Origin: Acidocella sp.
GTDB taxonomy: Bacteria; Pseudomonadota; Alphaproteobacteria; Acetobacterales; Acetobacteraceae
Length of the DNA: 64,000 nt
Direction of reading: 5' to 3'
Assembly: GCA_027308685.1 (NCBI GenBank)
Contig: DAIDEE010000006.1
Span: forward strand, 1-64,000
Shown here in pieces: positions 1 to 34,300 of this stretch. Made by a program: the position numbers and the translations under genes. A model generated the notes under the pieces. That model was not told where the DNA came from. It saw only the letters and a program-made list of their open reading frames with translations, and ran no database searches. The stretch's first letter is position 1. The number at the start of each line of letters is the position of its first letter.

Positions 1-1
1 G

Positions 2-1852
2 CTGACCTTGTGGCCATTGGTCAGCGCCACGGCCGCGGGTGCGGTTGTCGGCGACGGCGTCTCTTACCTCTTTGGGCGCCGCTACAAGCTGCGCGTCATG
101 GCAATCTGGCCGCTGCGCGCCCGGCCAGGACTGTTGGACTCTGGTAAGGCGTTCTTCGGGCGTCATGGCAGCAAGGCGGTACTTATTGCACGCTTTCTGC
201 CAGCCGTTCGCGCCGTGATTCCGCTGGTGGCAGGACTGTCTGGCATGTCAGTGGTCAGGTTCTATGCGGTTGATATTTGCGCGGGCGGACTTTTCGCTTT
301 TTCGCATGTTCTGTTCGGTATGGCGATTGGTGCTTCGTTCACGATTCTTCATGCCATTGCGGCCCGCCTTGCAGTTCTGGCGCTGCTTCTGGCAGCTTTG
401 ATAGGATTGGTTGTGTGGCTAACCCCGTTGGCGGTTCGCCGGACGGCCGCGTTTGCGGCGCGCCTGCGAGGGCCGGTGCGTGAGTGGGCCCGAGGGGGTG
501 ATACCAGATTTCGGCGGCTCGTGCGCTCATTACTGGACCCCGAACGGCCGGAAATGCCAGGACTTTTGGTGTTAGCGCTTTCCGTAGCCAGCGGGTTATG
601 GTTGTTTTTTGGCGTTTTGCAGGATGTTATTGCCGGTGACCCGCTGGTGCGCGCCGACCGATCGGTATTCCATTTACTGCAATCATTGCGCGTGCCTATT
701 GTTGACCAGGTTATGGTGGCGATCACCGAGTTAGGTGATGCCAGCGTGATTGTGCCCGTAACTTTGACCGTGCTGGTCTGGCTCGCCTGGCAGCGTGCCT
801 GGCGAGCAGCGAGTTATGGGGTGGCTACCGTGGCGGGAGCCAGCATTTTCGCGGTGCTGCTGAAGGCGCTGCTTCATCAGGCCAGACCGGGAGCGCTCTA
901 TAATGGGTGGAATGCCTATTCGTTCCCGAGCAGTCACGCCACCGTTAGCGCGGCGTTGTATGGCTTTTTAGTGGTGTTGGTCGGCCGAGAGGTTAGTGCC
1001 CGTGCCAGCATGGCCGCCACGTTGGCTGCGGTCTCGCTGGTTGGTGCCATCGCCTTTTCGCGTCTCTATCTTGGCGCACATTGGCTCTCGGATGTGTTGG
1101 CAGGTCTCGCCGTTGGCGTGGCGTGGAGCGCTTTGCTCGGAATTGTGTATTTGCAGCATGCGCGGCGAGATGTGCGGGCAGGGGGCATGGCGGCTGGCAG
1201 TGTCATCGCGCTGTGTGGTGCCGGTATGCTGCATATTGCCTTGGCTCATCCGGCCGACATGCGGCGTTACGCGATACATCAGCCGATTTCACAGATGGCC
1301 CAGGCAGACTGGCAAAATGGTGATTGGGCTGCGCTGCCAATCCGGCGGGTGGATCTGTCCGGCGATTACGAGGAACCTTTCACGATCCAATGGGCAGGCT
1401 CTCTTGCAAGTCTGAAGGCGGACCTGCTGACGCAAGGCTGGCGCACGCCGGTGCCGTGGACGCTTCGCTCGTCCTTCGAATGGTTGCTGCCTAATGCCGC
1501 GCCGGCTGCCCTGCCGGTGTTGCCGCATCTCGACAACGGCCGCGCCGAAGCTCTGGTGATGATCGAGGCTGGCGGTGGCCTGCCCCCGGATCAGCGGCTC
1601 ATTCTTCGGCTTTGGCCGTCTGGTGTGGTGCTCTCGGGCGGCTTGGTGCCCCAGCCTGTGTGGATCGGTACGGTCGTCATCGAGGCGGTTGAGCATCTGA
1701 AGCCGTTAGTGACGGTTGTTGATGAGCAACAAGATGTGAACGAAGCGCTGGATAGGCTTAAAGCTGCTCTACCGAAAGCGCAGCTTGAGGGCCGCCTACC
1801 AGCGATAATCAGCCCAGATTGGAATGGAAAAATAATCATCGGCCAGCCTTAG
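2..1852 (+). CDS. DedA-PAP2-LssY fusion membrane protein (5' end cut by window)
   Basis: The frame is open through the left edge of the window, so the N-terminus is missing. The first ~150 residues look like the DedA/SNARE-associated membrane domain, with the typical FFGRHG and ARFLPAVRAVIPLVAG segments. Residues ~185-395 are a PAP2-type phosphatase domain. All three PAP2 motifs are present: K-x6-RP (KALLHQARP), PSSH, and SR-x5-H-x3-D (SRLYLGAHWLSD). The last ~210 residues resemble the LssY C-terminal domain. Proteins of this build are thought to act on lipid or undecaprenyl phosphates at the inner membrane, with the DedA part in lipid-carrier transport; the substrate here is inferred. The gene stops at TAG 1850-1852 and faces the multicopper oxidase gene convergently. 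Confidence 0.85.
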   Translation: MTLWPLVSATAAGAVVGDGVSYLFGRRYKLRVMAIWPLRARPGLLDSGKAFFGRHGSKAVLIARFLPAVRAVIPLVAGLSGMSVVRFYAVDICAGGLFAFSHVLFGMAIGASFTILHAIAARLAVLALLLAALIGLVVWLTPLAVRRTAAFAARLRGPVREWARGGDTRFRRLVRSLLDPERPEMPGLLVLALSVASGLWLFFGVLQDVIAGDPLVRADRSVFHLLQSLRVPIVDQVMVAITELGDASVIVPVTLTVLVWLAWQRAWRAASYGVATVAGASIFAVLLKALLHQARPGALYNGWNAYSFPSSHATVSAALYGFLVVLVGREVSARASMAATLAAVSLVGAIAFSRLYLGAHWLSDVLAGLAVGVAWSALLGIVYLQHARRDVRAGGMAAGSVIALCGAGMLHIALAHPADMRRYAIHQPISQMAQADWQNGDWAALPIRRVDLSGDYEEPFTIQWAGSLASLKADLLTQGWRTPVPWTLRSSFEWLLPNAAPAALPVLPHLDNGRAEALVMIEAGGGLPPDQRLILRLWPSGVVLSGGLVPQPVWIGTVVIEAVEHLKPLVTVVDEQQDVNEALDRLKAALPKAQLEGRLPAIISPDWNGKIIIGQP

Positions 1853-1956
1853 CGGTTAAGGCGTGGGGTCGCGCACCCTAACAAGTTGCGATTGTCAGCA
1901 CGATAAAACAGCGTCTCGTTTAAGTTGATGCAATCAAGGGCCAGGCCCCGATCGCA

Positions 1957-3375
1957 TCATACCACGCCGGCGTACCTTACTTCGGTCATCATGCCAGACA
2001 TCATATGAAACAGGTTGTGGCAGTGCAGTGCCCAGCGGCCTTGATTATCAGCGTCAAAGGCAATGCGTACGCCGCCCATCGGCGGGACCAGCACCGTATC
2101 GCGCACTGCGCCATTGAGCGTCTGCCCGTTGATCGCCACGACTTGAAAGGCATGGCCGTGCAAATGCATCGGATGCGACATCATCGAATGGTTCGTCATG
2201 TCGATCACCACCCGTTGACCGGCTTTGATCATCAGGACATCCGGGTTTGGCCAGGTACTGCCGTTCAACGACCAGACATATTGGTTCATATCCCCGCCAA
2301 GTCGCAGGGGAATTGTGATATCTGCATCGCGCAGGCCCAACGGTTTAGCGGCGGATAACGAGGTTTCCAGCGACAGATCAACAGCGTTTGCCGCCACCAT
2401 CGCCGTGTTGTCCAGTTTGCTGACAGTTGCGGTCGCAGTTGCCAGAACCAGCCCGGTGCGCGCTGTTTTTCCCTCGACCTGTGCAAATACCGGAAAGGCC
2501 CCGGCCCGCGGCAGCTTTAATAAAATATCTAATCTCTGCGCCATAGCAACGGGAAATTGTGAACCGGTGACGGGTTTCACATCATGCCCATCGACCGCAA
2601 TCAACTGACCAGACAGAGCGCCAAGATCAATCCAGAAATTGGTGGACGACGCGCCATTGATAATGCGTAACCGAATATTTTGCCCAGCCGAAACCCGGAT
2701 GATTTGTGGGTCGGCCAGTGTGCGTTCGTTGGTTAAATAAGCGTCGTAATCAATATCATTGAGATCACCACCGCCCATCATACCGCCGGAGCCCATGTTC
2801 ATGCCGCTCATGTTCATCCCGCTCATGTTCATGCCGCCCATGCCACCTTTTTTGGTTAAGCCGGCCAGCAGTTCATCGGGGTTCTTGAAGCTGAAGTCGT
2901 GCAGCATCATCACCACGTCCTGCACGTCAGCAGCGGCACCCGCTGCATCATGCACAATTAAAGGCGCGGCCATAAGCTGCTGTTCCTGCATGCCTTGATG
3001 AGAATGCATCCAGAATGTGCCAGGGATTGGGGCAAAATCATATAATTTTTTGCCTCCGTTAGCGATGGCTGGTGTTTGCGGCCATGGAAACCCATCCTGC
3101 TTCCAATCAGGTAGCTGACCGTGCCAATGCACAATAGTTTCAGTACCACATTGATTGTCCAGCATTACCGCGAACCGCTCGCCCGGGCTGAGTGTTAAGC
3201 CCGGTTTGCCGCCAGGTCCGATCAGTCCAAAAACCTTCGCTGGCTTGCCATTAACCTCAAGAATACGACTGGTCGCACTTAGCAGATTGCTGGATTGTGC
3301 CTGAGCCTTTGGTACAGCGCTCAACAGGCCTAACCCGGCCGTTCCAGCCAAAACATTCCTACGTGACAACCTCAT
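1957..3375 (-). CDS. Tat-exported multicopper oxidase, CueO-like
   Basis: Predicted periplasmic copper oxidase of about 472 residues. The N-terminus has a twin-arginine signal (LSRRNVLAG). All four copper-ligand motifs are visible: HWHG (~83-86), HSH (~124-126), HPMHLHGH (~401-408) and HCHNLFHMMSGM (~451 on), in which the Met supplies the axial type-1 ligand. A Met/Gly-rich loop with repeated GMNMS units lies at about residues 175-205, as in CueO, where such a loop binds Cu(I). ATG at 3375 is preferred over TTG at 3399 because an AAGGGA ribosome site sits just upstream and the Tat motif then starts at residue 3. It is last in a minus-strand run after a Spy-like protein and a Met-rich membrane peptide. 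Cu(I) oxidation is the expected role. Confidence 0.9.
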   Translation of the reverse strand: MRLSRRNVLAGTAGLGLLSAVPKAQAQSSNLLSATSRILEVNGKPAKVFGLIGPGGKPGLTLSPGERFAVMLDNQCGTETIVHWHGQLPDWKQDGFPWPQTPAIANGGKKLYDFAPIPGTFWMHSHQGMQEQQLMAAPLIVHDAAGAAADVQDVVMMLHDFSFKNPDELLAGLTKKGGMGGMNMSGMNMSGMNMGSGGMMGGGDLNDIDYDAYLTNERTLADPQIIRVSAGQNIRLRIINGASSTNFWIDLGALSGQLIAVDGHDVKPVTGSQFPVAMAQRLDILLKLPRAGAFPVFAQVEGKTARTGLVLATATATVSKLDNTAMVAANAVDLSLETSLSAAKPLGLRDADITIPLRLGGDMNQYVWSLNGSTWPNPDVLMIKAGQRVVIDMTNHSMMSHPMHLHGHAFQVVAINGQTLNGAVRDTVLVPPMGGVRIAFDADNQGRWALHCHNLFHMMSGMMTEVRYAGVV

Positions 3376-3618
3376 TTTGACACTATCCCTTGCAACCAAC
3401 TATACTTGTTATGTAATAGCATCTTGATTTTTGAGAAGTATGTCGGCGAATTAAACTACCGAACAGCAATGACTCATGCTGTATATCGCACATCTTTGTG
3501 CTGATTTTTCCATTCCCGGTTATCGGTGCTTTTGTCGGGGTTACCGAGCCACGCACCGTCAAAAAGCTAGCCTCAAGCTATCGTTGATTTTTTATGCTAG
3601 TCATGCACGCTCAGCTTA

Positions 3619-3750
3619 TTATCGGCGGTGATCAAAAAACAGATATTTCACCAGGGCCGCGATTACAAGCATGCAGACCAATGCGCCAAATAATCCTCCC
3701 CAGCCCATGCCCCACATCATCGAGCCACCATAGCCATAACCATACATCAT
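3619..3750 (-). CDS. 43-residue Met/Gly/Tyr-rich membrane peptide in copper module
   Basis: A small reading frame with an excellent ribosome site (AGGAG, 5 bases before the ATG at 3750) and a TAA stop at 3619-3621. The N-terminal half is a run of Met, Tyr, Gly and Trp (MMYGYGYGGSMMWGMGWGG). It is followed by one hydrophobic helix (about residues 20-34) and a short basic, His-containing tail (FFDHRR). It lies between the Spy-like and multicopper oxidase genes on the same strand. The Met residues could bind Cu(I) on the periplasmic side; this is inference. Similar tiny Met/Gly-rich membrane peptides occur near copper genes, but I cannot name a family. Confidence 0.65.
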   Translation of the reverse strand: MMYGYGYGGSMMWGMGWGGLFGALVCMLVIAALVKYLFFDHRR

Positions 3751-3771
3751 TTTAACTCCTACAAGGAATAT

Positions 3772-3806
3772 CCGGCCTGCCCCAACTGCTGACCATGGCA
3801 GGCCGG
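3772..3806 (-). promoter_or_regulatory. Perfect 10-bp inverted repeat between Spy-like gene and membrane peptide
   Basis: CCGGCCTGCC (3772-3781) and GGCAGGCCGG (3797-3806) are perfect inverted copies around a 15-base loop. In the minus-strand transcript this hairpin falls 41 bases after the Spy-like stop codon and just before the ribosome site of the 43-residue peptide. No T-run follows, so it is more likely a processing or attenuation structure than a simple terminator. Confidence 0.5.
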
Positions 3807-3847
3807 TTGATCAACTCACCAGATACCGGCCCAAGCGGTTTTAGCTG

Positions 3848-4480
3848 TTACTCGTCGAAATTCATCATGGTTGGGCCTATACCGTAACCACCTCCAAACC
3901 TGCCCTCCAGTGCAAGGCCAGGTAAAATCTCATGCGCCTGGCCATTTTGGTAAGGGGTTAGTTTGGCCACCAATGCCTCAGCCGCAGCCTTTTGATCATC
4001 AAAATTCTGCTTTTTGAGCATGATCATCTGGCTCATAAACGTAAACTGCTCATCGGGTGTGACGGCCGTTTTGTCATTTGGCTCAAACGCCGCTTTCATG
4101 GCTGTGAAAAATTTCTGATCCGACGCGGTCACGGCATCGACATAGGCCTTCCAGGCCGGAGCTTCATCGCTGGTGATCTTCAATTCTTGCTTCAGCGCCT
4201 CAAAGCGGTTCGCAAAAACTGCTTTACCATTGCCCGACCAGACGTGGCCTGGTCCAAACCCATTCATCATCCCTGGTCCGTAACCAGACCCAAAGGCACC
4301 CATCATGCCCGCTCCAACCCCGCTACCGGGACCACCCATCATGCCCGGCCAATAATTGCCGCTTTGGTCCGTTGTCGTGGCTGAGTTAGCAGCAGGTTGC
4401 GCTAACGCAGCAGCGGCAAATCCTATCAGAATCAAAGTAGCCGCACCGGTCAGTACAATCCGGCGAAATTTTGTTGTCAT
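3848..4480 (-). CDS. Spy/CpxP-like periplasmic protein (LTXXQ type), Met/Gly-rich
   Basis: A 210-residue exported protein with a signal peptide of about 28 residues (ending AAALAQ). A Gly/Met segment with repeated PGMMGG/GMMGAFG/PGMMNGFG units follows (about 40-80). The helical rest carries an LTPYQ motif near the C-terminus, as in the LTXXQ (Spy/CpxP) family of ATP-independent periplasmic chaperones. The ribosome site is AGGAG, 8 bases before the ATG at 4480. It is the first gene of the minus-strand copper run. Spy/CpxP proteins respond to envelope stress, including metals; the Met-rich insert suggests direct copper binding, which is inferred. Confidence 0.75.
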   Translation of the reverse strand: MTTKFRRIVLTGAATLILIGFAAAALAQPAANSATTTDQSGNYWPGMMGGPGSGVGAGMMGAFGSGYGPGMMNGFGPGHVWSGNGKAVFANRFEALKQELKITSDEAPAWKAYVDAVTASDQKFFTAMKAAFEPNDKTAVTPDEQFTFMSQMIMLKKQNFDDQKAAAEALVAKLTPYQNGQAHEILPGLALEGRFGGGYGIGPTMMNFDE

Positions 4481-4770
4481 GTTAAGATCTCCTGGTGAAC
4501 GAAGCGCGGCTTCGGGTTGAAGCGTAAGCGCTAGGTCAGGTCGTTCGATAGTCTAAACATGAACCTGCTGCCTTGATCTCGATCAAAATGAGAGACCATT
4601 CGCAAGTCGTATTTTGGCCAGAGTGTCATGCTTTACTTGGCAGGGCCTTAATCATTCAGTGCCAGAAATCACCGGGCGTTTGAAATTGACGGATCGTGGA
4701 ATTTGACCGCGCCATTGATTTCAACCTACGCCGCAAATAATATAGTAAAGTATAAACTGAGCACTATCCT

Positions 4771-5937
4771 CTAAGAAAGGTAGATGCCGCATATGCGATT
4801 CCGGCCTTCTTCCTTGGCGCTGTAGAGAGCCCTGTCTGCTGCTTCTACCAAATCAATGGGCGCTTTCTTGCCAGGTTCAGGCACGAACGAAGCAACCCCG
4901 AGACTGATTGTCATGATGCCGCCCGGCCGGTTTGCGTGTGGGATTCGCATGTCACGGACCTGACGAAGCATCCGTTCCGCAACGGTGAGGGCTGATTTCA
5001 TGTCTGTGTTGGGAAGCAGAACAGCAAATTCCTCGCCGCCGTAGCGTCCTACGATGTCTGTTGGTCGGCAGGAGGCCTCCAAAGCGCTTGCCAGTTTTTG
5101 GAGACACCGGTCACCGGCGGGGTGTCCATAAAGATCGTTGTATTCCTTAAATGTATCGGCATCGATCATGATAAGCGAAAGTGGCTGGTTGGCCTTACTG
5201 GCACGATGAAAATACCGGTGCAGACATTCCTCAAAGTGTAGTCGATTACCGACGTTGGTAAGAAAGTCAAACCGTGCGTTGGCATGATGCCAGCGCACAG
5301 TTTTTTCCTTGACCAGCGCGATCATACTGAAATTTCCGACCAGCATGATAACGGTAAGGTCAATGATCAAAATGTCAAATCCAGGGACAGCTTCAAAGGA
5401 CGCATACGATATTCTAGGCCACACCAGCGATCGTACTGCCCGCTGCAGCATAATGATTAACTGAAGGCCTAGAATAACGAGCACAGGCCAGCGGATAACA
5501 GCGGAGCCTTGGGGGGTTAGCCAAAGCTCGTGGAGGGTGAGGCTCATGGGAATGAGCAGCAATAGAAGACTTAAACCAACGCGAAGGTCTAAACTTGCCC
5601 TGAATTCCGGAATAAAATAAAGCCCAAGCCAGATTAGTATCGGTGTGATGATGACGATGCTTTGTGGTTGAAACCCTCTTAAATACCGAAAGGCGGTCCA
5701 AAAAAAACCAAAGCTAAATAGCAGAGCAAAGTTGGTGAACGCGACACCTGCCAGCAAAGGCAATGTAGCACGGCCGATCATTGCGAGTGACATCAAGACT
5801 CCCGAAGCCGCAATCCAGAAAACCTCAATTTGCTGGCGGTCCTGCAGCCAAACAAGCAGGCTACCGCCCGCTGTTAGTAGGGTTACAAAGACCATAGCCA
5901 TGAGAAGTGTCTGCGGGTCTAAATTCAACGGTATCAT
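4771..5937 (-). CDS. Membrane-bound diguanylate cyclase (GGDEF)
   Basis: A 388-residue protein. About 205 N-terminal residues form six to seven hydrophobic helices and a C-terminal GGDEF domain follows. The active site is intact as GGEEF (about residue 300). An RxxD product-inhibition site (RPTD) sits exactly five residues upstream, so both synthesis of cyclic di-GMP from two GTP and feedback inhibition are expected. The N-terminal membrane domain is presumably a sensor; I do not recognise its family. No EAL domain is attached. The gene stands alone, with a 290-bp gap downstream and a 1.3-kb gap upstream. Confidence 0.92.
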   Translation of the reverse strand: MIPLNLDPQTLLMAMVFVTLLTAGGSLLVWLQDRQQIEVFWIAASGVLMSLAMIGRATLPLLAGVAFTNFALLFSFGFFWTAFRYLRGFQPQSIVIITPILIWLGLYFIPEFRASLDLRVGLSLLLLLIPMSLTLHELWLTPQGSAVIRWPVLVILGLQLIIMLQRAVRSLVWPRISYASFEAVPGFDILIIDLTVIMLVGNFSMIALVKEKTVRWHHANARFDFLTNVGNRLHFEECLHRYFHRASKANQPLSLIMIDADTFKEYNDLYGHPAGDRCLQKLASALEASCRPTDIVGRYGGEEFAVLLPNTDMKSALTVAERMLRQVRDMRIPHANRPGGIMTISLGVASFVPEPGKKAPIDLVEAADRALYSAKEEGRNRICGIYLS

Positions 5938-7238
5938 TTTAATGAATTAGCCTCGCTGGCAGACGCTGCTGGACTGCTCTCCTTTAGAGTTACATTTTCT
6001 GAAGATTGCCGGAACTGCCTGGATGAAAATGGTGATACATGATTTAGGTATCCATAGGCTATTCGGTCGTGGATAAGCTGTCAAAATTTGCAATATCGGT
6101 TCGTCCGTATGTTTTATTTTAACGAGTGCACTTGTTTTAGATACTAACTGGTCGAGAAACCATTGTAATGTATAAAATATATGGTCATGTGTTTGTTCTG
6201 CATCTTTATCATAAGTACTACATAAATTTTAGACATTATGAGGCCACATGTTTAATGTCACATCACAGATGCCGCGACCGAAATGGCGCTCGTGATGCCG
6301 GCGTATGTATGAAATACCAAATAAATATCCCGTCTGACAGATGAATATCTTTGCTGTAATGCCTTCTGCAGAGCGGTAAATGCGGTGATAGTTTATTTTA
6401 GGCGTGCTGCGTTATGGGAGAAATATTTGGAATGTGATTAGGCAACGCTGCCTGTTCAAAGTCTGAATTTGAGGGTATGGATGCTTTCTCAACCTCAGAT
6501 TGAGGTTGGGGTGGAAACCTAGATATATGATTATTTTGACCATAGCTGTCAAAGACATTGTCGGCGTAATTTCAGGCTAGTCAAAAAGATTTGCTGTTGT
6601 ATCGACAAATGCATATTTGCTTTTGTCGGCTCTCGATGAACGAGGTTGCACAACCGGCATCACACTGAATGGTTCGCCGTAATTATTTGTCGGGCACCGC
6701 GGTCGTCTCTGTAGCGAGTTGAGCGGTTCAGGGTTTTGTCCAGTTCCGCGATCAGATCCTGCGAAGATCCAAGATTTTGGGCTAACTGCGAAGCCTCGAG
6801 GTACGCGTTGTGCGGTAGTGTTCGAGAGGCAGATACTGCGGTTTCCCAGAAACCGGGTGAACGCCGGTGCCGGAGAAAAAATCACACCCGTTTTGCGCCG
6901 GGCACCAGGCCCCGCCATGCGCGCCCGGATTTGTGGGTAATTGTAAGTCAAACCGGAGGGGTAGTATTGGGCAAGGGTATCGGGGCCGCATTGAGGCGTA
7001 ATGAAATAAATAACTCACTGGATAGTGAATTATATAGACAAACGATTTTGCCGGTGGTTATAAGGGGGCAGATGCTGGGAAACCGGTGTGCCGAGACCGT
7101 AAAAGCGGCTTGAAAACTAGGGTAGAGCGAAAGATGAGCAATTTATAGGCATAAATGAACCCAAGCGGGCGGGCGTGACCGCAGTGGTGTGAATGGCTGG
7201 CATCACCAACACTCATAATGATTAACGGAGGATAAACA
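5938..7238. other. 1.3-kb stretch without a convincing gene
   Basis: The left part (5938-6570) is clearly AT-rich and has no long frame. The right part (6577-7113) has overlapping open frames on both strands (a 124-codon frame on minus, a 125-codon frame on plus). None has a ribosome site, a recognisable motif or plausible protein composition, so I treat them as chance frames or eroded sequence. A palindrome at 7010-7033 and the leader of the ABC transporter operon occupy the end. Confidence 0.5.
7010..7033. promoter_or_regulatory. 24-bp near-perfect palindrome upstream of ABC transporter operon
   Basis: The left arm ATAACTCACT (7010-7019) and right arm AGTGAATTAT (7024-7033) are inverted copies with one mismatch, separated by GGAT. 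Size and symmetry fit a TetR-type operator. It lies about 205 bp before the start of the binding-protein gene. A TetR regulator is encoded at 16502-17179, but a link between the two is only inference. Confidence 0.5.
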
Positions 7239-8492
7239 ATGAACCAATTAGATAGTTTGAACGGAAAAATTCTGGTGCCGCGCCGTCGGTTGCTGGGCGG
7301 CATTGCCGCGGGTGCGGCGGTTTCATCGCTGGCGATGCCGCATATCGCGCGGGCTGCCGAGCCGATCCGTATCGGCCTGCTGGAGGCCAAGCAGGGGCCA
7401 ATTTCCCAGCAGGCGCAGTATCTGCAACAGGGCACATTTCTGGCGCTTGAGCAGTTGAACAACGAATTGCTTGGCCAGCCGGCCGAAATCGTATGGGATG
7501 ATGAGATTTCGCCTCAGGCGGCGGGGCAGAATGCCGTACAGTTGATCGAGCAGAACAAGGTTGTGGCATTGCTGGGTGGTGCGCTCAGCAATTTTGCACT
7601 GGCGGAAGAAGCGATCGCCGGACAATATAAAATTCCGTTTATCGTCAATAACGGTGCAGCCGAGGATATTACCGGGGCCAAGTGCAATCCCTATACATTC
7701 CGCTTGCAGCCGCCGGTGCCCGTGCAGGCCGCAGCGATGATGCCATTCCTCGAACATATCGGCAAACGCTGGTACTTCCTCTCAGCCTCATATGCGTTTG
7801 GCCAGGATATTGCCGACAGCTTCAAGGCCTTGTTGAAAACCGCCGGCGGCGTAATTGTGGGAGACGACCAGGTACCAGTTGGCACAGCTGATTATAGCGC
7901 CTTTATCCTTAAAATTCGTGATGCCAAGCCTGATTTGGTAATTGGTGGCCTGACTTCGGGTGATTTGTCGAACTTCCTGAAGCAATGGAATGATTTCGGG
8001 ATGCGCGGAAAAATTCCATTCACTGAAATCGCGGTGGGTGATCCTGATTTGTGGGCCGTGGGCAAGGAGAATGTTTCGGGCATTTATACCACTTTGTGGT
8101 GGTACAAAGACCCGAATAACTCGCCCGCAGACAAAGCTTTCGCAGACGCTTATCAGAAAAAATACAACCGCCCGGCTGCCGATAAAGCATGGATGGGTTG
8201 GTATACTGCCAAAATCATGTTCCAGGCGATCAATGCGGCGAAATCCACCAAGGCTGATGCCATTGTTGAAGCCTTGCAGAATTGGCACGAAATTGATGGC
8301 GGGCTGAATGTGCATTTCAACAAGTGGAACAACCAGCTTGAGCATCGTTTTCTGATTGTCGGCGTGAAGAAGAATATCCCTGATCAGTGGGATTACTTTG
8401 ACGTGCTGGCTTCGGTGCCGGGTTCGCCTGAGGCGATGACGGCAGCGTTTGGCACGGCGGCGGACAGCGTATGCCATATGACGGCGCTGTAA
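7239..8492 (+). CDS. HAAT-type ABC transporter substrate-binding protein, Tat-exported
   Basis: A 417-residue periplasmic binding protein of the Leu/Ile/Val or urea/amide type (Peripla_BP_6). A twin-arginine signal (PRRRLLGG) and hydrophobic stretch end near HIARA (about residue 39), and the mature protein starts with the family-typical IRIGLLEAKQGPIS. The ribosome site GGAGG is well placed before the ATG at 7239. It heads an operon with a LivH-type permease and a fused LivM-LivG-LivF protein. The ligand is not readable from sequence. Tat export is less usual than Sec export for this family. The shikimate-dehydrogenase homologue downstream makes a hydroxy acid or ring compound possible, but amides or amino acids remain equally open. 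Confidence 0.88.
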   Translation: MNQLDSLNGKILVPRRRLLGGIAAGAAVSSLAMPHIARAAEPIRIGLLEAKQGPISQQAQYLQQGTFLALEQLNNELLGQPAEIVWDDEISPQAAGQNAVQLIEQNKVVALLGGALSNFALAEEAIAGQYKIPFIVNNGAAEDITGAKCNPYTFRLQPPVPVQAAAMMPFLEHIGKRWYFLSASYAFGQDIADSFKALLKTAGGVIVGDDQVPVGTADYSAFILKIRDAKPDLVIGGLTSGDLSNFLKQWNDFGMRGKIPFTEIAVGDPDLWAVGKENVSGIYTTLWWYKDPNNSPADKAFADAYQKKYNRPAADKAWMGWYTAKIMFQAINAAKSTKADAIVEALQNWHEIDGGLNVHFNKWNNQLEHRFLIVGVKKNIPDQWDYFDVLASVPGSPEAMTAAFGTAADSVCHMTAL

Positions 8493-8516: not shown

Positions 8517-9386
8517 ATGCTCGATATGATGGTGATGCAGGCTGGAAACGGCTTGGCACTTGGGTTTTTATATGTGCTGATTGCTCTAGGGCTGTCGATT
8601 ATTTTCGGCCTCCTTGGCATTGTCAATTTTGCGCATGGCGTGTTCTTCGCGTTGGGGGCTTATTTTTCCGTCACCATGTTTGGCGTGATGGGCTGGTGGG
8701 GCGTGCCGGTAGCGATGGTGATCGTCACCATTATCGGCATGCTCACCGAGTTTTTGTTGATACGGCGGCTTTACGATAAAGACCCACTGGTCAGCCTGAT
8801 CGTGACCTTTGCATTTTCGCTGCTGGCTGAAGCCGTTATTCGCACAATCTGGGGGCCTGAAGGGCAACCTTTCAACGCACCGGATGCATTGAGCAATGTC
8901 ATTATTTTCGGGCCGTTCGTGATGGCGACTTACCGTCTGGCAGTGATGCTGTTAGCGATGGTTATTTTGGCGTCATTGTGGGCGTTTTTGAATTATACAA
9001 AATTTGGTCGCATTTTGAGGGCCGGAAGCCGTGACCCCGGAATGGTTGGTCTGCTTGGGATTAATTTGCCGCGTGTTTTAACGGGTACGTTTGGATTGGG
9101 ATGTTTGCTGGCCGCCATCGCGGGTGTGTTGGCAGCGCCGCTGTGGACCGTGACGCCGAGCATGGGTACGGCCGCGATTATGCCGGCGTTTGTCATCGTT
9201 ACCATTGGCGGGCTTGGCTCGTATATGGGCGCTGTGGTGGCAGGCTTGCTGGTTGGTTTGGTGCAGTCTCTTACGATCCAATTTTATCCGGAAGCCTCCG
9301 CTGCAGCAATGTATGTATTGATGGCTTTGATCTTGCTGGTGCGGCCGCGCGGGTTGTTCGGTGAGCAATGGGAGCGTTTTGAATGA
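8517..9386 (+). CDS. Branched-chain-amino-acid-type ABC permease (LivH family)
   Basis: A 289-residue polytopic inner-membrane permease with the LivH pattern: GLSIIFGLLGIVNFAHG in the first third and GLGSYMGAVVAGLLVGLVQS near the end. It starts 24 bases after the binding-protein gene with a GGGAGGAA ribosome site, and its TGA overlaps the next start as ATGA (9383-9386). It should pair with the permease half of the fusion protein that follows to form the membrane channel of the transporter. Confidence 0.92.
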   Translation: MLDMMVMQAGNGLALGFLYVLIALGLSIIFGLLGIVNFAHGVFFALGAYFSVTMFGVMGWWGVPVAMVIVTIIGMLTEFLLIRRLYDKDPLVSLIVTFAFSLLAEAVIRTIWGPEGQPFNAPDALSNVIIFGPFVMATYRLAVMLLAMVILASLWAFLNYTKFGRILRAGSRDPGMVGLLGINLPRVLTGTFGLGCLLAAIAGVLAAPLWTVTPSMGTAAIMPAFVIVTIGGLGSYMGAVVAGLLVGLVQSLTIQFYPEASAAAMYVLMALILLVRPRGLFGEQWERFE

Positions 9387-11893
9387 AATTTTTACTCAAA
9401 TTTTTAACCGCGAATCCAGTTGTCGTCCTGGCGCTGGTGTTGGTGGGGTTGAGCTTGGCGGCTCCGATAATGGGCTTGCCAGTCAGCAAGATTACCGAGA
9501 TTATTATTTTCACTCTCTATGCGGCGGGCGTGAATGTGCTGGTAGGTTATACGGGGCTGGTGCCATTTGGGGCCTCGGTGTTTTTTGGGACCGCCACCTA
9601 TATTGTCGCCATTTTCATATTGGATGGCGGCGGCAACGAGATTGTGGCCCTTCTGGTTGCGATAGTCGCTTCCGTGCTTTTGGCGCTGGTGTTGGGGCTG
9701 TTGATTTTACGGCGGCGCGGTTTGTATTTTTCATTGTTGACGCTTGCGGCTTCGCAAATTGCTTTTGAGGTCGCATTTAGCTGGACAGCGGTAACCGGTG
9801 GTGAAAATGGCTTGCAGGATGTGCCGATGAGCATTCTGACAACCCCCCTGCGGTTGCATGTATTTGTGCTGGTGCTGGCGGTGGTGGTGATGTGGCTTTT
9901 GTGGCGGCTGGCACATGCGCCGTTTGGCCGTGCCTTGCAGGCTGTACGCGATAATGAAGCGCGGATGCGCTGCCTGGGCTACAATACCGCACGGTTGAAG
10001 CTGTTGGCTTTTTGTCTGTGTGGCGGAGTTGTGGGGCTGGCCGGTGGATTGCTGGCGCTCATGCTGCGCGGGGCATATGCTGACAGTCTTGGCTGGGAAC
10101 ATGCGGGCGATGCGTTGCTGATGACTGTGCTGGGCGGCGTGCATCAGTTTCTGGGTCCTCTTTGGGGGGCCATTGCGTTCATCATGCTGCAGGACCGGTT
10201 GAGCGCGGTTATCGCTAATTGGTGGTTGGTATTTGCGCCTATTATTATGATCTTTGCGCTTGGCTCGCCGGAAGGTATCCAAGGGCTGGCACAGCGCTTC
10301 AGGAAATTGCAGAATTGGACGTTGGTCCGTGCGGGGATTCCGGTGCGTCCGGATGTTATCGAACCGTACAAACCCGGCGATGCGAATCTTGATTTGACCC
10401 AGCCGGTTCTCACAGTGCGCGGTCTGACCAATCGTTTTGGCTCGCTCTACACCGCGCGCAACATCGATTTGGATGTGATGCCGTGCCAGTTGCATAGTTT
10501 TATTGGCCCGAACGGTGCGGGCAAAACGACATTTTTCAATATTTTAACTGGAATGCTGCATCCGACCGAAGGGACGATTAGTTTTGCCGGGCGCGATATT
10601 ACTAAATTGCCGGTGTATGAACGGGTGCGGCTGGGGATGAGCCGGTCATTCCAGATCGTCAGCGTATTTAAGGATTTAACGGCGTTTGAGAATGTACGGA
10701 TAGCGGTGCAGGCCCGTCTGCCATGGAAGTTGCGTGATTGTCTGACAGATGCTTACCGTAACGAAGCTGCAAATGCGCGTACTTGGATGCTACTGGCGGC
10801 AGTGGGACTAGAGGATCGTGCGGCGGAGATGTGCACGCATCTGTCTCATGGTGAGCAGCGCTTGCTGGAGATCGCCATTTCTCTGGCGACCGATGCGAAG
10901 TTGCTGTTGCTAGATGAACCTCTGGCCGGACTTGCGCAGGCGGACAGGCAGATTGTTGGCGCGTTGATTCGTCGCCTGGCGCAAGCTCATGCCGTGCTAC
11001 TGATTGAGCATGATATGGACCGGGTGCTGACCCTTTCTGATCGGATTACTGTGCTGCATCAAGGTAATCTGATCGCCGATGGTAAGCCTCGCGATGTGGC
11101 GAACGACCCAGCAGTTATCACGGCTTATCTGGGGGCGCCGAAGGATCCGATGGTGATTCCGCCGCATGAGGGCGGGCCAGCCGGCAAGCCGATTCTAGAA
11201 GTTAAAAATCTCTCGGCTGGTTATGCGGGAAGTGTCATTTTGAATGGTGTAAGCTTCACAATTCACGAAGGTGAGGCGATTGCCATTCTGGGACGCAATG
11301 GTGTTGGTAAGACCACGACGCTGAATAGTCTGATGGGCACGGTCGATATCAACGGCGGCGAGATTTGGCTTGATGGCAAGAATATCACGGGCGCGAAATC
11401 CTATCAGATTAATCAAAGCGGTATTTCGCTGGTTCCAGAGGGACGCCGGTTGTTTCCGAACCTGACGGTGTTGGAAAACCTGCAACTGGCAATGCGTCCG
11501 GGTGGCGCTACGCTCGATGAAGTCTATGAGCTGTTTCCAAAACTGAAGATTTTGCAGAAATCACGTGGTTCGGCACTTTCCGGCGGTGAGCGCCAGATGG
11601 TGGCGGTGGCGCGTGCGTTAATGGTGCCTAGCCGGATTATTTTGCTGGATGAACCGTTCGAGGGCTTGGCGCCCGCGATCGTGAAGGAAGTTATGGAAGC
11701 GGTGGTGAAGCTGCGCAGCCGGGCGAGCCTGGTGATTGTGGAGCATCATGCAGAATCGGTTCTTTCGATTGTGGATCGCGCTATTGTTCTGGTGAATGGC
11801 GAGGTGGCTTATGAGGGCACGGCAGAGGCGCTGGCGGCGGATGAGCCACTACAGGCGCGGTTGCTTGGGGTCGTGCATGCGGAAGCTGCTTGA
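9383..11893 (+). CDS. Fused LivM permease + LivG ATPase + LivF ATPase
   Basis: An 836-residue protein joining three transporter parts that are usually separate. Residues ~1-310 are a LivM-type permease. Residues ~340-575 are a first ABC ATPase with Walker A GPNGAGKTT (~374), signature LSHGEQ (~486) and Walker B LLLLDEP. Residues ~600-836 are a second ATPase with Walker A GRNGVGKTT (~636), signature LSGGERQ (~731) and Walker B IILLDEP. All catalytic motifs are intact, so both ATPases should work. The only unusual element is the first signature, SHGEQ rather than SGGEQ. Together with the two genes before it, this encodes a complete importer in three polypeptides. Confidence 0.93.
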   Translation: MKFLLKFLTANPVVVLALVLVGLSLAAPIMGLPVSKITEIIIFTLYAAGVNVLVGYTGLVPFGASVFFGTATYIVAIFILDGGGNEIVALLVAIVASVLLALVLGLLILRRRGLYFSLLTLAASQIAFEVAFSWTAVTGGENGLQDVPMSILTTPLRLHVFVLVLAVVVMWLLWRLAHAPFGRALQAVRDNEARMRCLGYNTARLKLLAFCLCGGVVGLAGGLLALMLRGAYADSLGWEHAGDALLMTVLGGVHQFLGPLWGAIAFIMLQDRLSAVIANWWLVFAPIIMIFALGSPEGIQGLAQRFRKLQNWTLVRAGIPVRPDVIEPYKPGDANLDLTQPVLTVRGLTNRFGSLYTARNIDLDVMPCQLHSFIGPNGAGKTTFFNILTGMLHPTEGTISFAGRDITKLPVYERVRLGMSRSFQIVSVFKDLTAFENVRIAVQARLPWKLRDCLTDAYRNEAANARTWMLLAAVGLEDRAAEMCTHLSHGEQRLLEIAISLATDAKLLLLDEPLAGLAQADRQIVGALIRRLAQAHAVLLIEHDMDRVLTLSDRITVLHQGNLIADGKPRDVANDPAVITAYLGAPKDPMVIPPHEGGPAGKPILEVKNLSAGYAGSVILNGVSFTIHEGEAIAILGRNGVGKTTTLNSLMGTVDINGGEIWLDGKNITGAKSYQINQSGISLVPEGRRLFPNLTVLENLQLAMRPGGATLDEVYELFPKLKILQKSRGSALSGGERQMVAVARALMVPSRIILLDEPFEGLAPAIVKEVMEAVVKLRSRASLVIVEHHAESVLSIVDRAIVLVNGEVAYEGTAEALAADEPLQARLLGVVHAEAA

Positions 11894-14775: not shown

Positions 14776-16075
14776 ATGCGTCATATCACTAAAGCCGGTT
14801 CCAAACTGAAGACTGGGTTACTCGCAAGTGCTGCGTTTGCCATGGGTATTGGGGTTGCAGCGTCGGCGCAGGCGCAGTCTGCGCCGGCTAATAATTTCTG
14901 GACCCGTCCGTTGATGACCGGTGACTGGAATGGCGGCCGCACCAAGTTGAGGAATGACGGCCTGGATTTCCATGGTTTTTATGTTGGCGAATTCGCCGAT
15001 GTGTTGTCGGGCGGCAAGCGTCAGGGCAATGGCTATGCGCAGCAGCTTGGTGTGAGTGTTGACGTTGATCTGGGCAAGATTGATGACCTCATTGGCGCGG
15101 TGCTGCATTTTGGTTTCAACCAGCGTCAGGGCCGCAGCGTATCGAGTGATTTTATTGGCAACAAGTTGGCGGCTCAGGAAGTTTACGGTGCCGGTGAGAC
15201 CTTGCGTGTTACCGAAATGAGCTACGAGCAAACGCTCGCGCATGGTCTGATTAACACCAAGATAGGCTTTTATCCGTTCGGCAATGATTTTGCGTTGACC
15301 TTGCTCGGCTGCGACTTTCAGAATGTCGGGTTTTGCGCCCATCCGCAAAACCTGCCCGGTTCTAGCGGTTATTCCGATTACCCAACCGCGAAATGGGGGG
15401 GGCCGCGTGAAGGTGAATATCACGCCAGCACTTTATGCCGAAGCCGGTGTGTTTGATTCCAACCCAACGTATTACGCGCATAATAATGGCCTCAAAGTTG
15501 GTATGTCGGGCTCGACAGGCGCCATTATTCCGTTTGAAGTTGGTTATACCACTGCCCTTGGTGACGCGAAGTTGCCAGGTCACTACAAGGTTGGTGGCTA
15601 TTACGACACCTCCACGTCGGCTGACGCCGCGGTGCCGCATCAGATGGGTGATGGCCGCTACGGTGGCTATATTTTGGTGGACCAGATGCTGTTCAGCTTC
15701 AATGGCACACCAAGCCGCGGCTTGATTGCCATGGCGCAGGTTTCCTACTCCGACCCGAAGACGGCAGTTTTTGAAAGCACGATGGATGTGGGCTTGATCG
15801 CGCAAGGCCTGTTTGATGCCCGCCCACATGACTTTATGGCTATTGGCTATGTGCGGGCTGGTTTGAATAACCGCACCGCTAGAGCTAAGCAAACGCTAAA
15901 TTACCCGAATGCAACCACCGGCGAGGGCGTTATTGAAGTTGGGTATGGCCTGCAGGTTACGCCATGGCTACTGATCCACCCGAACGTGCAGTATATTATG
16001 GATCCGGGCACGTTTGCGTACAAACATATACCCAATGCTTGGGTGTTTGGGGCGCAGACCAAGATCTTCTTCTAG
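14776..16075 (+). pseudogene. oprB: OprB-type carbohydrate porin, frameshifted in a G8 tract
   Basis: Two overlapping frames together encode one outer-membrane porin of about 432 residues. The first part has a signal peptide ending SAQAQ and the OprB-typical LMTGDWNGGR and GFYVGEFADVLSGG. The second part continues from VNITPALYAEAGVFDSNP to a C-terminal Phe (QTKIFF). The break is a run of eight G at 15395-15402. With seven G the reading is continuous (AKWGGRVKVNITP), so one extra base is the whole defect. As written, translation ends early at 15456. It could be a true mutation, a phase-variable switch or a homopolymer sequencing error. OprB porins pass sugars and related polar solutes. Confidence 0.88.
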
Positions 16076-16501: not shown

Positions 16502-17179
16502 TTAATCCGCGGACATCATGAATAGTGTGACGGTGTCGGTGATCATCCGGCGCTGGCGTTCGCGTATTTTCGGTTCGTTCAAGTCGCACTCGAAAATAGT
16601 GCCGAAGGTCTGGCGGTTGGACACGCGGTAAAAACACAGCGCACTAATCATTAAATGTAAATCCGCCGGGTCGATATGGCGCTTGAACACGCCCTCCTGC
16701 AGCCCTCGTGCGAGCAGGCCTTTGACCACCATCAGCGCCGGACGGTTGGTTTCGCGCACCGCCAGCGAGGCTTTTACGTGCTCGGCGTTGTGAATATTTT
16801 CAATGGCGACCAGGCGGACAAATTCAGGGTGGGCATCATGGTAGTCGAAGGTGAATTCCACCAGCCGCCGCAAGGCGGTTTCAGGGTCCAGACGGTCAAG
16901 GTCCATATGCTCCTCGATCCGCCTGATCCCGGCATAGGCACGCTCCAGCACCAGGGCGTAAAGGTTTTCCTTGCTTCCGAAATAATAATAAATCATCCGC
17001 TTGGTGGTCTGGGTTTTGGCGGCGATGGCGTCCACTCGCCCGCCGGCTAGCCCGTGGGCGGCAAATTCCATGGTCGCCACGTCCAAAATGTCCTGTTTGG
17101 TACGTTCCGGGTCGCGCGACCGGACCGGCCGGGGAGCCGTGTCGGGTGGTAAATTCGTCACTGCGTCAACCGGTTTCAT
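16502..17179 (-). CDS. TetR family transcriptional regulator
   Basis: A 225-residue regulator. After a ~22-residue polar extension, residues ~25-75 form the TetR DNA-binding helix-turn-helix (ILDVATMEFAAHGLAGGRVDAIA, then TTKRMIYYYFGSKENLYALV). The C-terminal helical half is the ligand domain of a larger TetR subgroup. It lies downstream of and on the same strand as an AEC carrier, and opposite the porin. Possible targets include the carrier and the ABC/porin units with palindromic leaders; this is inferred. The ligand is unknown. Confidence 0.9.
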   Translation of the reverse strand: MKPVDAVTNLPPDTAPRPVRSRDPERTKQDILDVATMEFAAHGLAGGRVDAIAAKTQTTKRMIYYYFGSKENLYALVLERAYAGIRRIEEHMDLDRLDPETALRRLVEFTFDYHDAHPEFVRLVAIENIHNAEHVKASLAVRETNRPALMVVKGLLARGLQEGVFKRHIDPADLHLMISALCFYRVSNRQTFGTIFECDLNEPKIRERQRRMITDTVTLFMMSAD

Positions 17180-28502: not shown

Positions 28503-31163
28503 ATGACGCGACATGATAGCCGAACAGGGCTTTTTTTGCCCAAATTGCGTAAAATTCTCACTGCCGCAGCTTTTGCGGCTTCGCTTGCGTTGGGCGTGAA
28601 CGCTCAGGCAGCGATTGCTCCGGCGGCAGGCACCAACATCAGCAACCAGGCGTCAGCCACTTATGTGGATTCTTCAGGAGCGACCCATACGGTGACCTCC
28701 AATGTGGTGAATACCACAGTCACCCAGGTGGCCAGCCTGACGTTGACCGCCAGCAACACCTCCACCTCCACCGCGAACGGTACCGTTTATTACCCGGAAA
28801 CCCTGACAAATACGGGTAACGGTAGTGATACGTTTGCCCTGACCCAGACCAACCCGGGTAGCGGCACCTTCACCATGAGCAGCGTACAGTTTTTCGCTGA
28901 TAACGGCAGCGGCCAGCCGACCGGCCCAGCGCTGACCTCCACGGGCATTCTGGCTGCTGGGGCGGCGTTCAAGTTTATTGTGGTTGGTGCGGTGTCCTCC
29001 ACGGCGACATCGGGTCAAACCAACGTGATTACCGTGACCGGCACCAGCGGCTTTTCGTCCGGCCAAACCGCCAGTGTAACGGATACGACAACCATCACCA
29101 GCGGTGCTGTGGTGGCCGTGACCAAGTCAATCAGTGCGCCGTCCGGTGCGCCTGGCTCGGGTCCTTATACTTACACCCTGAGCTATACCAACAGCGGCAA
29201 TGCCAACGCCACCAGCGTAACTCTGACAGACGTTGTGCCGACTGGAATGACCTATGTTACCGGTTCAGGCCTGTGGAGCGTAACGGGTGCCACCGCCTTG
29301 AGCGATAGTGGCGGCAGCAGCGGCACCTCGCCGAACACCATCACGTCGAGCTACACAACAGGCACCACCACTTTTAAAGTGGTTATTGCGAACGTTGGCG
29401 CCGGGCAATCTGGCACCGTCAGTTTCAAGGTGAATGTGGGCGCTGCTACGTTACCGGGGATTTTGAACAACACGGCACAAATCTCGTTTGTTGATAGTGC
29501 CAGCGGTTCAACAATTACTGGCACCACGAACACTGTGGCTTTTAACGTCAGTTCCACTGCCAGCTTAACCCTGACCGGCCAGACCGTTAAGGGTCCGGCT
29601 GCACCGGGTTCCTCTGTACCTTTCACCAACGTGGTGACGAATACCGGTACCGCGACCGATACGTTTAACATTAAGCTTCTGACCAACAACTTCCCAACCG
29701 GCACCACTTTCCAGCTTTACAAGATGGATGGTTTGACCCCGCTGGTGGATACCAACAACGATGGCATTGTTGACACAGGGCCGTTGGCACCGGGCGCAAC
29801 TTACAGTGTGATTGTGGTTGCCACCTTGCCGAATAGCGCCACTAATGCCAGTGCGCCTTACATTCTGACCAAATCAGCCACTTCAACCAACGATCCAACC
29901 AAGTCTCAAACCACGACAGACACGTTGTTAGCCATCGAGCCGGCAAGCGTTGACGTCACCGATGTGGCAGCCATTGGCGGCACTGGGGTTTTGGGAACGG
30001 GCCTTGGGCCGGAATCGTCGCCCGTATTGACCCAGTCGGTCAACCCGGGGGCTTCCACGACCTTCAGCCTGTTCGTCAACAACACCGGCCCATCGGCTGA
30101 TAATTACGACCTGACGGCGACCTATGCCGGTGCGGCTTTGCCATCCGGCTGGACTGTCAGCTTCGCCCAACCGGTGGGCGGCTCGTGTTCGACCACGGGC
30201 GCGGCGATTACCAACACGGGCAACGTTGTCGCTGCCGGTAATGTCCAGGTTTGCGCCATCGTAACGGTGCCAGCCATCGGGACTGCCAACGCGATGTATA
30301 ATGCCGGCCTGTATAAAATCTGGATGCAGGCGCTCTCGCCGAATTCCGGTGCGACCGACACCATCGATAACGGCGTGTCGGTCAATCAGGTGCGCTCGCT
30401 AGTGCTGTCGCCCAATGGTACGGGCCAGACCTACCCGGGTGGCACTTACGTCTACACCCACACGCTGACCAACGAGGGCAACGTGACTGAAGCCGACGGT
30501 ACTGTCAGCACGTCAACCTTCAGCGATACCAATGGCCTGACCGGCTGGACATCAACCTTGTACTACGATGCCAGCCATAGCGGGACTATTACCAGCACGG
30601 ATCCGATCATCCCGACTTCGGGTGGTTTGAATACTGTGTCCGGCTTGTCGGCTGGTCTTGCTCCTGGTGCGTCGATCACGATCTTCGACAAGGTGGTTGC
30701 ACCAAGCGGTGCCACAACCGGCGCGTTGAACCCCACGACCATCACGGTAACAACCACAACGGGGACCTACACGGTATCCGCACCGACCCCGTCGGTTGTG
30801 ACTGATAATACTTCGGTGATCTCGGGCAACATTACGCTGGTGAAAACCCAGGGGTTGGATGCAACGTGTTCAGGCAGCGCCAGCACCTATACCCAGGGCA
30901 ACATTAACGCAGCCCCTGGCCAGTGCATCATGTATCAGGTGACAGCAACCAACGTTGGGGCCACTAATGCTACCAGCGTGGTGATCTCTGACTCGACACC
31001 TGCTTACACAACACTGAACACCGTAGCCGCCATCACGACACCCGGCATCATCGGTAGCGGTGGTCCGACGGTCGGTGGCACCGGATCTATCAGTGCCACA
31101 GTGGCGACGATGACCCCCGGTCAGTCGGTGGTCTTGAGCTTCGGCGTTAAGATCAACCACTAA
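28503..31163 (+). CDS. Large exported DUF11-repeat surface protein
   Basis: 886 residues rich in Thr, Ser, Asn and Gly, with a signal peptide ending NAQAA. The N-terminal module (GTNISNQASATYVDSSG) is shared with the 2028-residue protein two genes on. Several DUF11/Ig-like repeats follow, e.g. YTYTLSYTNSGNANATSVTL and YQVTATNVGATNATSVVI. There is no LPXTG anchor, no lipobox and no C-terminal barrel, so attachment would need a partner. I infer an extracellular fibre or matrix protein. The gene is followed by a hairpin at 31177-31208. Confidence 0.8.
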   Translation: MTRHDSRTGLFLPKLRKILTAAAFAASLALGVNAQAAIAPAAGTNISNQASATYVDSSGATHTVTSNVVNTTVTQVASLTLTASNTSTSTANGTVYYPETLTNTGNGSDTFALTQTNPGSGTFTMSSVQFFADNGSGQPTGPALTSTGILAAGAAFKFIVVGAVSSTATSGQTNVITVTGTSGFSSGQTASVTDTTTITSGAVVAVTKSISAPSGAPGSGPYTYTLSYTNSGNANATSVTLTDVVPTGMTYVTGSGLWSVTGATALSDSGGSSGTSPNTITSSYTTGTTTFKVVIANVGAGQSGTVSFKVNVGAATLPGILNNTAQISFVDSASGSTITGTTNTVAFNVSSTASLTLTGQTVKGPAAPGSSVPFTNVVTNTGTATDTFNIKLLTNNFPTGTTFQLYKMDGLTPLVDTNNDGIVDTGPLAPGATYSVIVVATLPNSATNASAPYILTKSATSTNDPTKSQTTTDTLLAIEPASVDVTDVAAIGGTGVLGTGLGPESSPVLTQSVNPGASTTFSLFVNNTGPSADNYDLTATYAGAALPSGWTVSFAQPVGGSCSTTGAAITNTGNVVAAGNVQVCAIVTVPAIGTANAMYNAGLYKIWMQALSPNSGATDTIDNGVSVNQVRSLVLSPNGTGQTYPGGTYVYTHTLTNEGNVTEADGTVSTSTFSDTNGLTGWTSTLYYDASHSGTITSTDPIIPTSGGLNTVSGLSAGLAPGASITIFDKVVAPSGATTGALNPTTITVTTTTGTYTVSAPTPSVVTDNTSVISGNITLVKTQGLDATCSGSASTYTQGNINAAPGQCIMYQVTATNVGATNATSVVISDSTPAYTTLNTVAAITTPGIIGSGGPTVGGTGSISATVATMTPGQSVVLSFGVKINH

Positions 31164-31388: not shown

Positions 31389-34300
31389 ATGAGAGTTTTT
31401 CGTAACATCTTACCAGTTTTACTGGTTGCGGCAGGGCTGATTAGTCCGCTGGCGATGTTTGTGAAAATCGCTGAGGCGCAGGTTGCCGTGCCCACTAATG
31501 GTACGCTCATCACGAACACCGCATACGCCACATACTTCGATGATCAAGGCCGGGTGGGCGTTGCAACATCGAATACCGTCACCAGCGTGGTATCGCCTGT
31601 ATCAGCGCTAACACTCACCAGCAGCCAGACTGTGCAAAGTGCCAGCGGAGCACAATTTGCTATCATGCATGTGCTTACCAACACCGGCACGCAAACTGTC
31701 ACCTACGCATTGACGGCGCTGCTCAATTCCGGTTCGGGCTACACACCGGATGCGTTGCAAATTCTCACCGACCCCAGCGGCGGCACCGCGATTGTGACCG
31801 CCGACCAGCCGGTGAACAGTGTTACGCTGGCTCCGAATGCTTCGGTGAATTTGCTTGTAACCGGATATGTGCCCTCGCAGACACCGCAGGCGGCGGCTGC
31901 AACCATCACATTGACGGCAAGCAGCGCCGGGTTAGGCCAGAGCAATACCGATATCATTCAAGTATCGGGTTCAGCGCAAGTGGTGGTCAGTTTAGTATCA
32001 CCGCAATCGGTCGCCGTACCAGGCGAGGCCGCCACGTTCAATGCCACTGCAACTGATTACAATTTTGCGGCCGGGCCGGTGGTAGTTTTGGTTAATGGTG
32101 CGCCTAGTAGCTATTTTTTACTTACACTGCCGGTTCCAGCCGGCACCAGTTTTATTTCGGCCCAGACTGGCGCGCAGATTTTATATCACTCACTCGGCCA
32201 GCCCGCAGGATCCTACACCATCACCCCGGTAGGGCAGGTGGATTATGTGGCCGCGGGTGTGGCGTCTCTTGCAGTAAATGCCAGTGTCAGCCTGAGTTTG
32301 ACTGTTGGTGTAAACACCAATGTTTCAGCAACGGTTATCGACACCGCTTTAGCCGATTGGGTGAACAGCGCGTCTGCAACGCAGCTTACATACAGTAATC
32401 AAGTGCAATTGCCGATTACGGCGGTGGCTCCCTCGATCGCGTTTTTCACGCCCGGTTTTGTGCAGCCGGAATATGAAAATACCATCGGCAACGCGCTTTA
32501 CTTACAGGTTTCGGCTCCTGGTTGCGATACCAATCCGGCGCAAATTCTGACCATCCCTGTGACTTTGACCAGCCGACTGACCGGTGACGTGGAGATATTC
32601 CAGGCCACCGAAACTGCGCCCGGATCGGGAGTTTTCAGAATTTTGCCAAGCGTGCCGACTGCGAATGCTGCCGCAACGCCGGTGGTGAAGGGTAACGGCG
32701 TGATGGAGTTACGCCCAAATGACACGGTGGTTGCGCTGGCGGGTAATGGTTGTTCGGATGCGGTATCCACCACCTTGCTGATTGACCCCAGCGGCGTTGT
32801 GTACAGTTACAGCACGGACCTACCGGTGGCGGGTTCTGTGGTGCATTTGATCAATGTCGCCAACAATGCGCCGGCTGCTGTGTATCAGTATGATGGCGTG
32901 ACGCCTGCGCCGAGCACGGTAACTACGGGCAGTGACGGTATTTATTCATTTCCTTTGGTAGCGCCTGGCACTTATCAGATTGTGGTGACCCCGCCTGCTG
33001 GCTATGCCTTTCCGTCGAAAACGTCGCCCACTAATCAGCCCGCCGGGCGTACGACGAGTGTAACAGGCTCCTTCGGGCAGGCTTTCACCATCTCCGGACA
33101 GGCTGATGCGCCGGTCGTGTATGATATTCCGCTCGATAGCGCTGCACCAAAGGGTAAATTATTCATCACTCAGACCGCCAATCAGTCGATCGTTCAGATC
33201 GGTGATTTTGTCGATTATTCTGTGCAGATTAACAATAACACTGGTGAAACGCTCACGAGCGCAACCATGCTAGTTACCCTGCCAGCCGGGCTTACCTACG
33301 TGCGGGGCACTGCCACATTGAATGGGGTGCGCATCGCAGACCCCACCGGCAATGCCGCGCAACTGGTGTTTGCATTGGGCACATTGCCTGTGGGGGCTAC
33401 GCCGATATTGCGATATCGCGTTTCAGTGGGACCAAATGCCAGTACCGGCGGCTTGGTGGATAGCGCTCAGGCCTTTGCCAATGACACGCAAGGTCCCATT
33501 GGCTCCAATGTCTCACCGGTTACGGTGCAGATCGTTGGTGGTGTGTTCAGCGACAAAGCCTATGTGATTGGTAAGGTATTTGCGGATTGTCATTTGACCA
33601 AGATGCAGGAAGATGGCGACCCCGGCGTGCCGGGCGTGCGAATTTATTTTAATAACGGCGATTACGCGATTACCGATACTGAGGGTAAATATAGTTTTTA
33701 TGGGTTAACCCCACGCACGCATGTGGCGCAGGTCGATACCACCACTTTGCCTGCTGGGGTAAAGATGGAGATATTGGACAACCGCAACGCGCTTAATCCG
33801 AACAGCCAGTTTGTGGATTTGCAGAATGGCGAGATGCAGAAAGTTAATTTTGCTATTGCCGGGTGCTCGCCCGATTTACTTACGCAAATTGCGGCACGTA
33901 AAAAAGCTTTGAAGAATCCGTCGGAATTGACGGCCGCCGCTGGTATTTTGCTGTCCGGTCAGTATCAGCAAAGCAGTTTGCTGCAGCAACAGCAATTGTT
34001 GCAGCCGCAGGATGCTGGGGGCATCGGCTTGCCGGGTTCGGGTACGGCGGTTGGCAGTATGGGCTCGGCATCGATGGCCGGACCGCAAATCGGCTCCGTG
34101 CTGCCAGGGCAAGGCGGCGGTATGATCCCCACTTCGCCGGGCGCGCCGATGCCAGGTGGCGGTAGGGTACCCGGCGGCTTGGGTGCCGTGGGGGATCCCG
34201 GTGGTTCCTTTGCGCCATTCGCCCAAGGGCAGCCCAGCCCGATCTACACGCCCACCACCACCTTATTTAACCATTCTGCTCCCGGTGGCGTGCAGGATGA

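Follow-up and report, generated by a model that had tools for sequence, protein, structure and literature searches.

A geneless gap in an Acidocella chromosome: a likely synteny breakpoint with insertion sequence debris

Debris of insertion sequences is a common finding at the synteny breakpoints of bacterial chromosomes. Elements of the IS66 family have a terminus that begins with GTAA and generate an 8-bp target duplication. Elements of the IS4 family can reportedly target the ends of another transposon, as in the case of IS231A and Tn4430. The locus described here resembles the known breakpoints in that fragments of mobile elements are found where the gene order differs between relatives, and no difference from them is evident. 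It is located in a 64,000-nucleotide stretch of DNA from Acidocella sp. (hereafter, the window) on contig C16; the genome comprises 2.86 Mb in 73 contigs. A literature search found no publications on IS66 insertion sequences in Acidocella.

The geneless gap and its two sides

The gap occupies positions 5938-7238, between the open reading frames for a GGDEF protein and for an ABC-type substrate-binding protein. As stated in an earlier note on this DNA, it is 1.3 kb (1301 bp) without a gene: neither the ORF lists nor Pfam revealed a plausible gene between 5937 and 7239, and a ranking based on 46 gene spans, hand-picked from the ORF lists, makes it the longest gap in the window, followed by one of 665 bp. 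The AT-rich left and GC-rich right parts described in that note are apparent from the GC content in 200-bp windows (37-42% across 6000-6599 and 51-60% across 6600-6999), and open frames are indeed present on both strands, with 124 amino acids (aa) on the minus strand (6577-6951) and 125 aa on the plus strand (6736-7113). The statement that coding signals are lacking holds only in part. Codon-usage scores are negative in all nine gap frames that were scored (-0.072 to -0.526), and those of 31 genes (0.028 to 0.372) each exceed all nine, a measure that is blunt here because the GGDEF neighbor scores the lowest of the 31. However, the top-scoring gap frame, 6577-6951 on the minus strand (-0.072; z 2.1 relative to shuffled versions of itself), contains a recognizable stretch of an IS66 transposase (see below). 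A Pfam scan of 10 of the 31 stop-to-stop frames in the gap gave, apart from IS66, only weak matches to Brix, GIY-YIG, Mucin-like, and HAT_PRP39_N (E 0.05-0.22), which were taken as chance. The gap contains no tRNA genes (the single tRNA in the window is tRNA-Lys at 60770), its 2 consensus promoters and 2 terminators compare with 2.1 and 1.8 expected, and the repeats within it amount to two short inverted pairs, with no direct repeat family.

The left neighbor of the gap (4771-5937, minus strand) encodes a GGDEF protein (diguanylate cyclase; Pfam GGDEF, 3.4e-48) with a 75% relative in the genome G010, the next-best relatives being at 43-47% (search with E up to 1e-60). The upstream (promoter) region of this gene, 5939-6099 on the minus strand, is similar to the region directly upstream of the GGDEF gene in G010, with 65% identity over 163 columns under permissive scoring; stricter scoring retains 6032-6099 at 77% identity. 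The right neighbor (7239-8492, plus strand) encodes a periplasmic substrate-binding protein (Pfam Peripla_BP_6, 2.2e-70) with 95% identity in G010. It is the first gene of an ABC operon that continues with a permease and an 836-aa protein that has a permease part and two ATPase parts, and is followed by a shikimate dehydrogenase-like gene. The promoter region and 5' leader of this operon (7006-7238, plus strand) are 75% identical, over 233 columns, to the region directly upstream of the binding-protein gene in G010. Since the third codon positions are only 46% (GGDEF gene) and 67% (binding-protein gene) identical to those in G010, both edges are kept somewhat beyond silent sites, as would be expected of promoters.

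Close copies of both flanking genes are present in just one of the 37 other genomes of the genus, G010, where they lie on different contigs. The match to 4795-6099 is found on contig C12 (65.8-67.1 kb of 100.9 kb) and the match to 7006-7236 on contig C3 (8.0-8.3 kb of 315.3 kb), so that similarity ends at 6099 and restarts at 7006 on a different contig; G010 has no other match to 1-7238. The neighbors at the G010 sites, judged by eye, are a GNAT/DUF1778-like gene pair and a fimbrial-type gene. A search of seven genomes with 1-7238 returned any match in five of them, and beyond 3129 the matches came from G010 only, plus a single 34-bp match in G061 (5107-5140). Positions 6100-7005 had no match in any of the seven. 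Because G010 is 83% complete, absence of this DNA from it is weak evidence, but the separation of the two flanks stands regardless. Judging from the sequence, the joint is one of upstream regions that belong to two divergently oriented genes, which are unrelated and do not adjoin each other in the closest available relative, and it contains two terminal fragments of insertion sequences and ∼580 bp of AT-rich DNA without a convincing relative. As the debris consists of diverged sequence rather than a long exact repeat, the joint is unlikely to be a misassembly.

The gap is therefore very likely a synteny breakpoint with decayed insertion sequence debris (IS66 and IS4/Tn5) between the upstream regions of two genes. 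From the homologies and their boundaries, which are observed, we infer that an IS66-family and an IS4/Tn5-group element would have inserted at the joint, that recombination or deletion between or beside them would have brought the GGDEF gene and the ABC operon together, and that the elements would subsequently have been worn down by deletion and point mutation. Alternatively, the rearrangement may have come first and the insertion sequences later. The "island edge" of the earlier note survives in the weaker sense of such a breakpoint. Probably no product is made from the gap itself, and its working parts are probably the promoter regions at its two edges. An unannotated stretch is settled as a rearrangement scar, which is useful for annotation and little more, and the debris can be set apart from the two promoter regions and a palindrome at 7011-7032, which are probably what matters here.

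Remains of IS66 and IS4/Tn5 elements

The segment 6679-6866 (minus strand) is the relic of an IS66-family element, namely of its 3'-terminal part with the C-terminal region of the transposase, as indicated by blastn, tblastn, and an edge shared with other copies. Searches with the gap sequence found four further places in its own genome and matches in 6 of 61 genomes, its own included. In blastn, the copy L008 aligns with the window in two blocks, one at 6678-6747 (70 bp, 80% identity) and one at 6746-6866 (121 bp, 72% identity). In L008, the first block spans the end of the IS66 transposase frame and the second lies inside that frame; as these two blocks stand apart there, the window lacks ∼139 bp at 6746/6747 relative to L008.

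A protein-level comparison used the intact IS66 transposase of G032 (L009), recognized by Pfam DDE_Tnp_IS66 (2.6e-85) and NCBIfam transpos_IS66 (3.3e-137). In a search of the genome, residues 448-516 of this protein matched 6721-6927 (E 2.3e-9), the sole match to the IS66 transposase in the window at E up to 1; beyond 6866, this alignment continues only weakly, for ∼60 bp of the IS4-like part. The tblastn score against the gap was 57.8 bits, whereas the best of 500 dinucleotide-shuffled sequences reached 29.3 bits and 217 of them gave any match at all. The earlier note, which had listed a decayed gene among its suggestions and a conserved protein family in one of the frames as evidence against its own reading, was right about the former as far as 6679-6866 is concerned. 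A protein family does match one of the frames, well above the shuffles, but that frame scores 15.8 bits in Pfam and 18.8 bits in NCBIfam, under the curated cutoffs of 23.1 and 180, respectively.

The boundary of the relic is shared with other copies, six of the seven having their similarity edge at window positions 6678-6680, and the remaining one (L012) at 6691. The terminus at 6679 reads GTAA, as it does in five of these seven, with GTAT in L012 and ATAA in L004. In G032, a similar tip, GTATCCCTCCGG, is found independently at the end of two copies. Flanking sequences differ among the copies, except for one that is common to L002 and L008. Five of the IS66 matches (L007, L008, L011, L012, and L014) are at most 0.5 kb away from the end of their contig, which was counted as a sign of multicopy behavior. 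The segment 6746-6851 also matches the IS66 transposase genes of two Rhizobium plasmids (2 of 72,556 records), and the plasmid matches to the gap are confined to the IS66 part. In sum, the relic resembles IS66-family insertion sequences in protein sequence over a C-terminal stretch only, agrees with them in its terminus and in the orientation of the gene end to that terminus, and differs from them in its length of only ∼188 bp, its internal deletion, and its lack of a complete transposase, so that it is classed as a relic and not as a working element. Inspection by eye of both sides showed no target site duplication.

As a separate observation, an IS66 relic at L002 1354 and L008 1502 lies within the same flanking sequence in the studied genome and in G006; because this flank is shared, the two genomes probably share that insertion by descent.

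Immediately to the right, at about 6866-6963 (no strand assigned), lies the relic of one end of an IS4/Tn5-group element, recognized by its similarity to the ends of the element at G000:C16:85256-86679. The inverted-repeat core is at 6931-6947, with its outer side facing rightward and the outer limit between 6947 and 6963. The two ends of the C16 element align with 6865-6947 (73% over 86 columns) and 6931-6963 (31 of 33 bp). The broken transposase pieces of that element match the Pfam domains Tnp_DNA_bind and Dimer_Tnp_Tn5, as well as the NCBIfam IS4/Tn5 models transpos_IS4_3 and IS4_FS_Nterm. The inverted repeat reads CTTACAATTACCCACAA in the window and CTTTCAATTACCCACAA at both ends of the C16 element (16 of 17 positions identical), and the pattern CTTTCAATTACCCACAA, with one mismatch allowed, is found at 8 places in 5 of the 38 genomes of the genus. 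The fact that two ends in G024 (L112 and L117) have other flanks suggests, at the level of sequence comparison, that the inverted repeat proper starts at CTTTC. What remains in the window agrees with the Tn5-like group of the IS4 family in the terminal inverted repeat and ∼80 bp inside it, whereas no part of the transposase is recognized; none of the gap frames scanned matched Tnp_DNA_bind or Dimer_Tnp_Tn5, and the segment is accordingly classed as a terminal relic. Further IS4-like or IS66 matches in the window, at 31036-31066 (E 0.006) and at 1081-1112 and 43415-43431 (E 0.35), were taken as chance.

At four of the six IS4/Tn5-like ends with element homology, the 12-17 bp beyond the inverted repeat resemble the IS66 tip. 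These are the end in the window, the end in G013, and both sides of the C16 copy, which alone supplies two of the four. The tip is absent at the two G024 ends, L112 and L117, and also at L113 and L114, which match the pattern without known element homology. When the tip pattern is loosened, it also matches at 32528 and 56037 of the window, presumably by chance. That IS4/Tn5-like elements in this group of Acidocella target IS66 tips or carry them as an extended end is rather unlikely. If they do, the gap would record the targeting of one element by another.

Operon leader, palindrome, and other readings of the gap

The right edge of the gap includes a 22-bp imperfect palindrome, TAAcTCACT-N4-AGTGAaTTA (7011-7032, plus strand), which is a candidate operator. 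With up to three mismatches allowed, it is found in a single copy in the window and not at all in 100 shuffles, and among the 38 genomes of the genus it is present only here and at the corresponding site in G010. A TetR-family gene is located at 16502-17179; that its product binds this palindrome is a guess.

The 5' leader of the ABC operon that follows the palindrome (7033-7238) would be the most likely place for a functional noncoding RNA or riboswitch, and its conservation in G010, slightly above that of the third codon positions of the gene, could be read in this way. Still, a noncoding RNA locus, another of the suggestions of the earlier note, is highly unlikely: no Rfam family reaches the gathering level in the gap (the two subthreshold matches have E values of 0.15 and 5.8), the folding energy of the leader is no better than that of shuffled sequences (z -0.54 and -0.28), and the leader aligns poorly in G011 and G020, which have the same kind of transporter gene.

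Even less likely is that 6679-6963 represents a miniature nonautonomous (MITE-like) element moved by IS66 or IS4 transposases. Both outer edges of this unit do look like insertion sequence tips, and 6679-6699 matches, in inverted orientation, the L005 segment to which 6865-6885 also aligns (21 bp, 90%, E 0.077). However, the whole unit has no second copy in its own genome or in 60 relatives, and no target duplication is seen. Two adjacent relics at a synteny breakpoint remain the preferred explanation of this segment.

The AT-rich filler between the GGDEF promoter region and the IS66 relic (6100-6678, no strand assigned) has no match in 60 relatives or in phages; a search of 298 further genomes from the order, with at most two candidates scored per genome, gave only three matches, of 26-28 bp (E 0.002-0.007). 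Positions 6964-7005, between the IS4/Tn5 relic and the operon promoter region, likewise carry no assignment. That the AT-rich filler encodes a small lineage-specific protein is the least likely reading of all, since its short frames (e.g., 6141-6344 on the plus strand) have codon scores at the level of shuffles (z -0.7 to 0.9), and, besides the paucity of those matches in the order, no convincing Pfam match was found among 10 frames scanned.

Two features outside the gap may be mentioned. At 9383-11893, the permease and the two ABC ATPase parts are fused into one 836-aa frame, and frames of 836 and 845 aa occupy the equivalent position in loci from Acidocella (L089) and Bradyrhizobium (L091), respectively. 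Further to the right, the coding sequence of an OprB-type porin (window positions 14776-16075) is divided between the frames 14776-15456 and 15323-16075, which overlap and correspond to successive portions of one model (2-131 and 130-372); this split reflects a frameshift, a pseudogene, or an assembly error.
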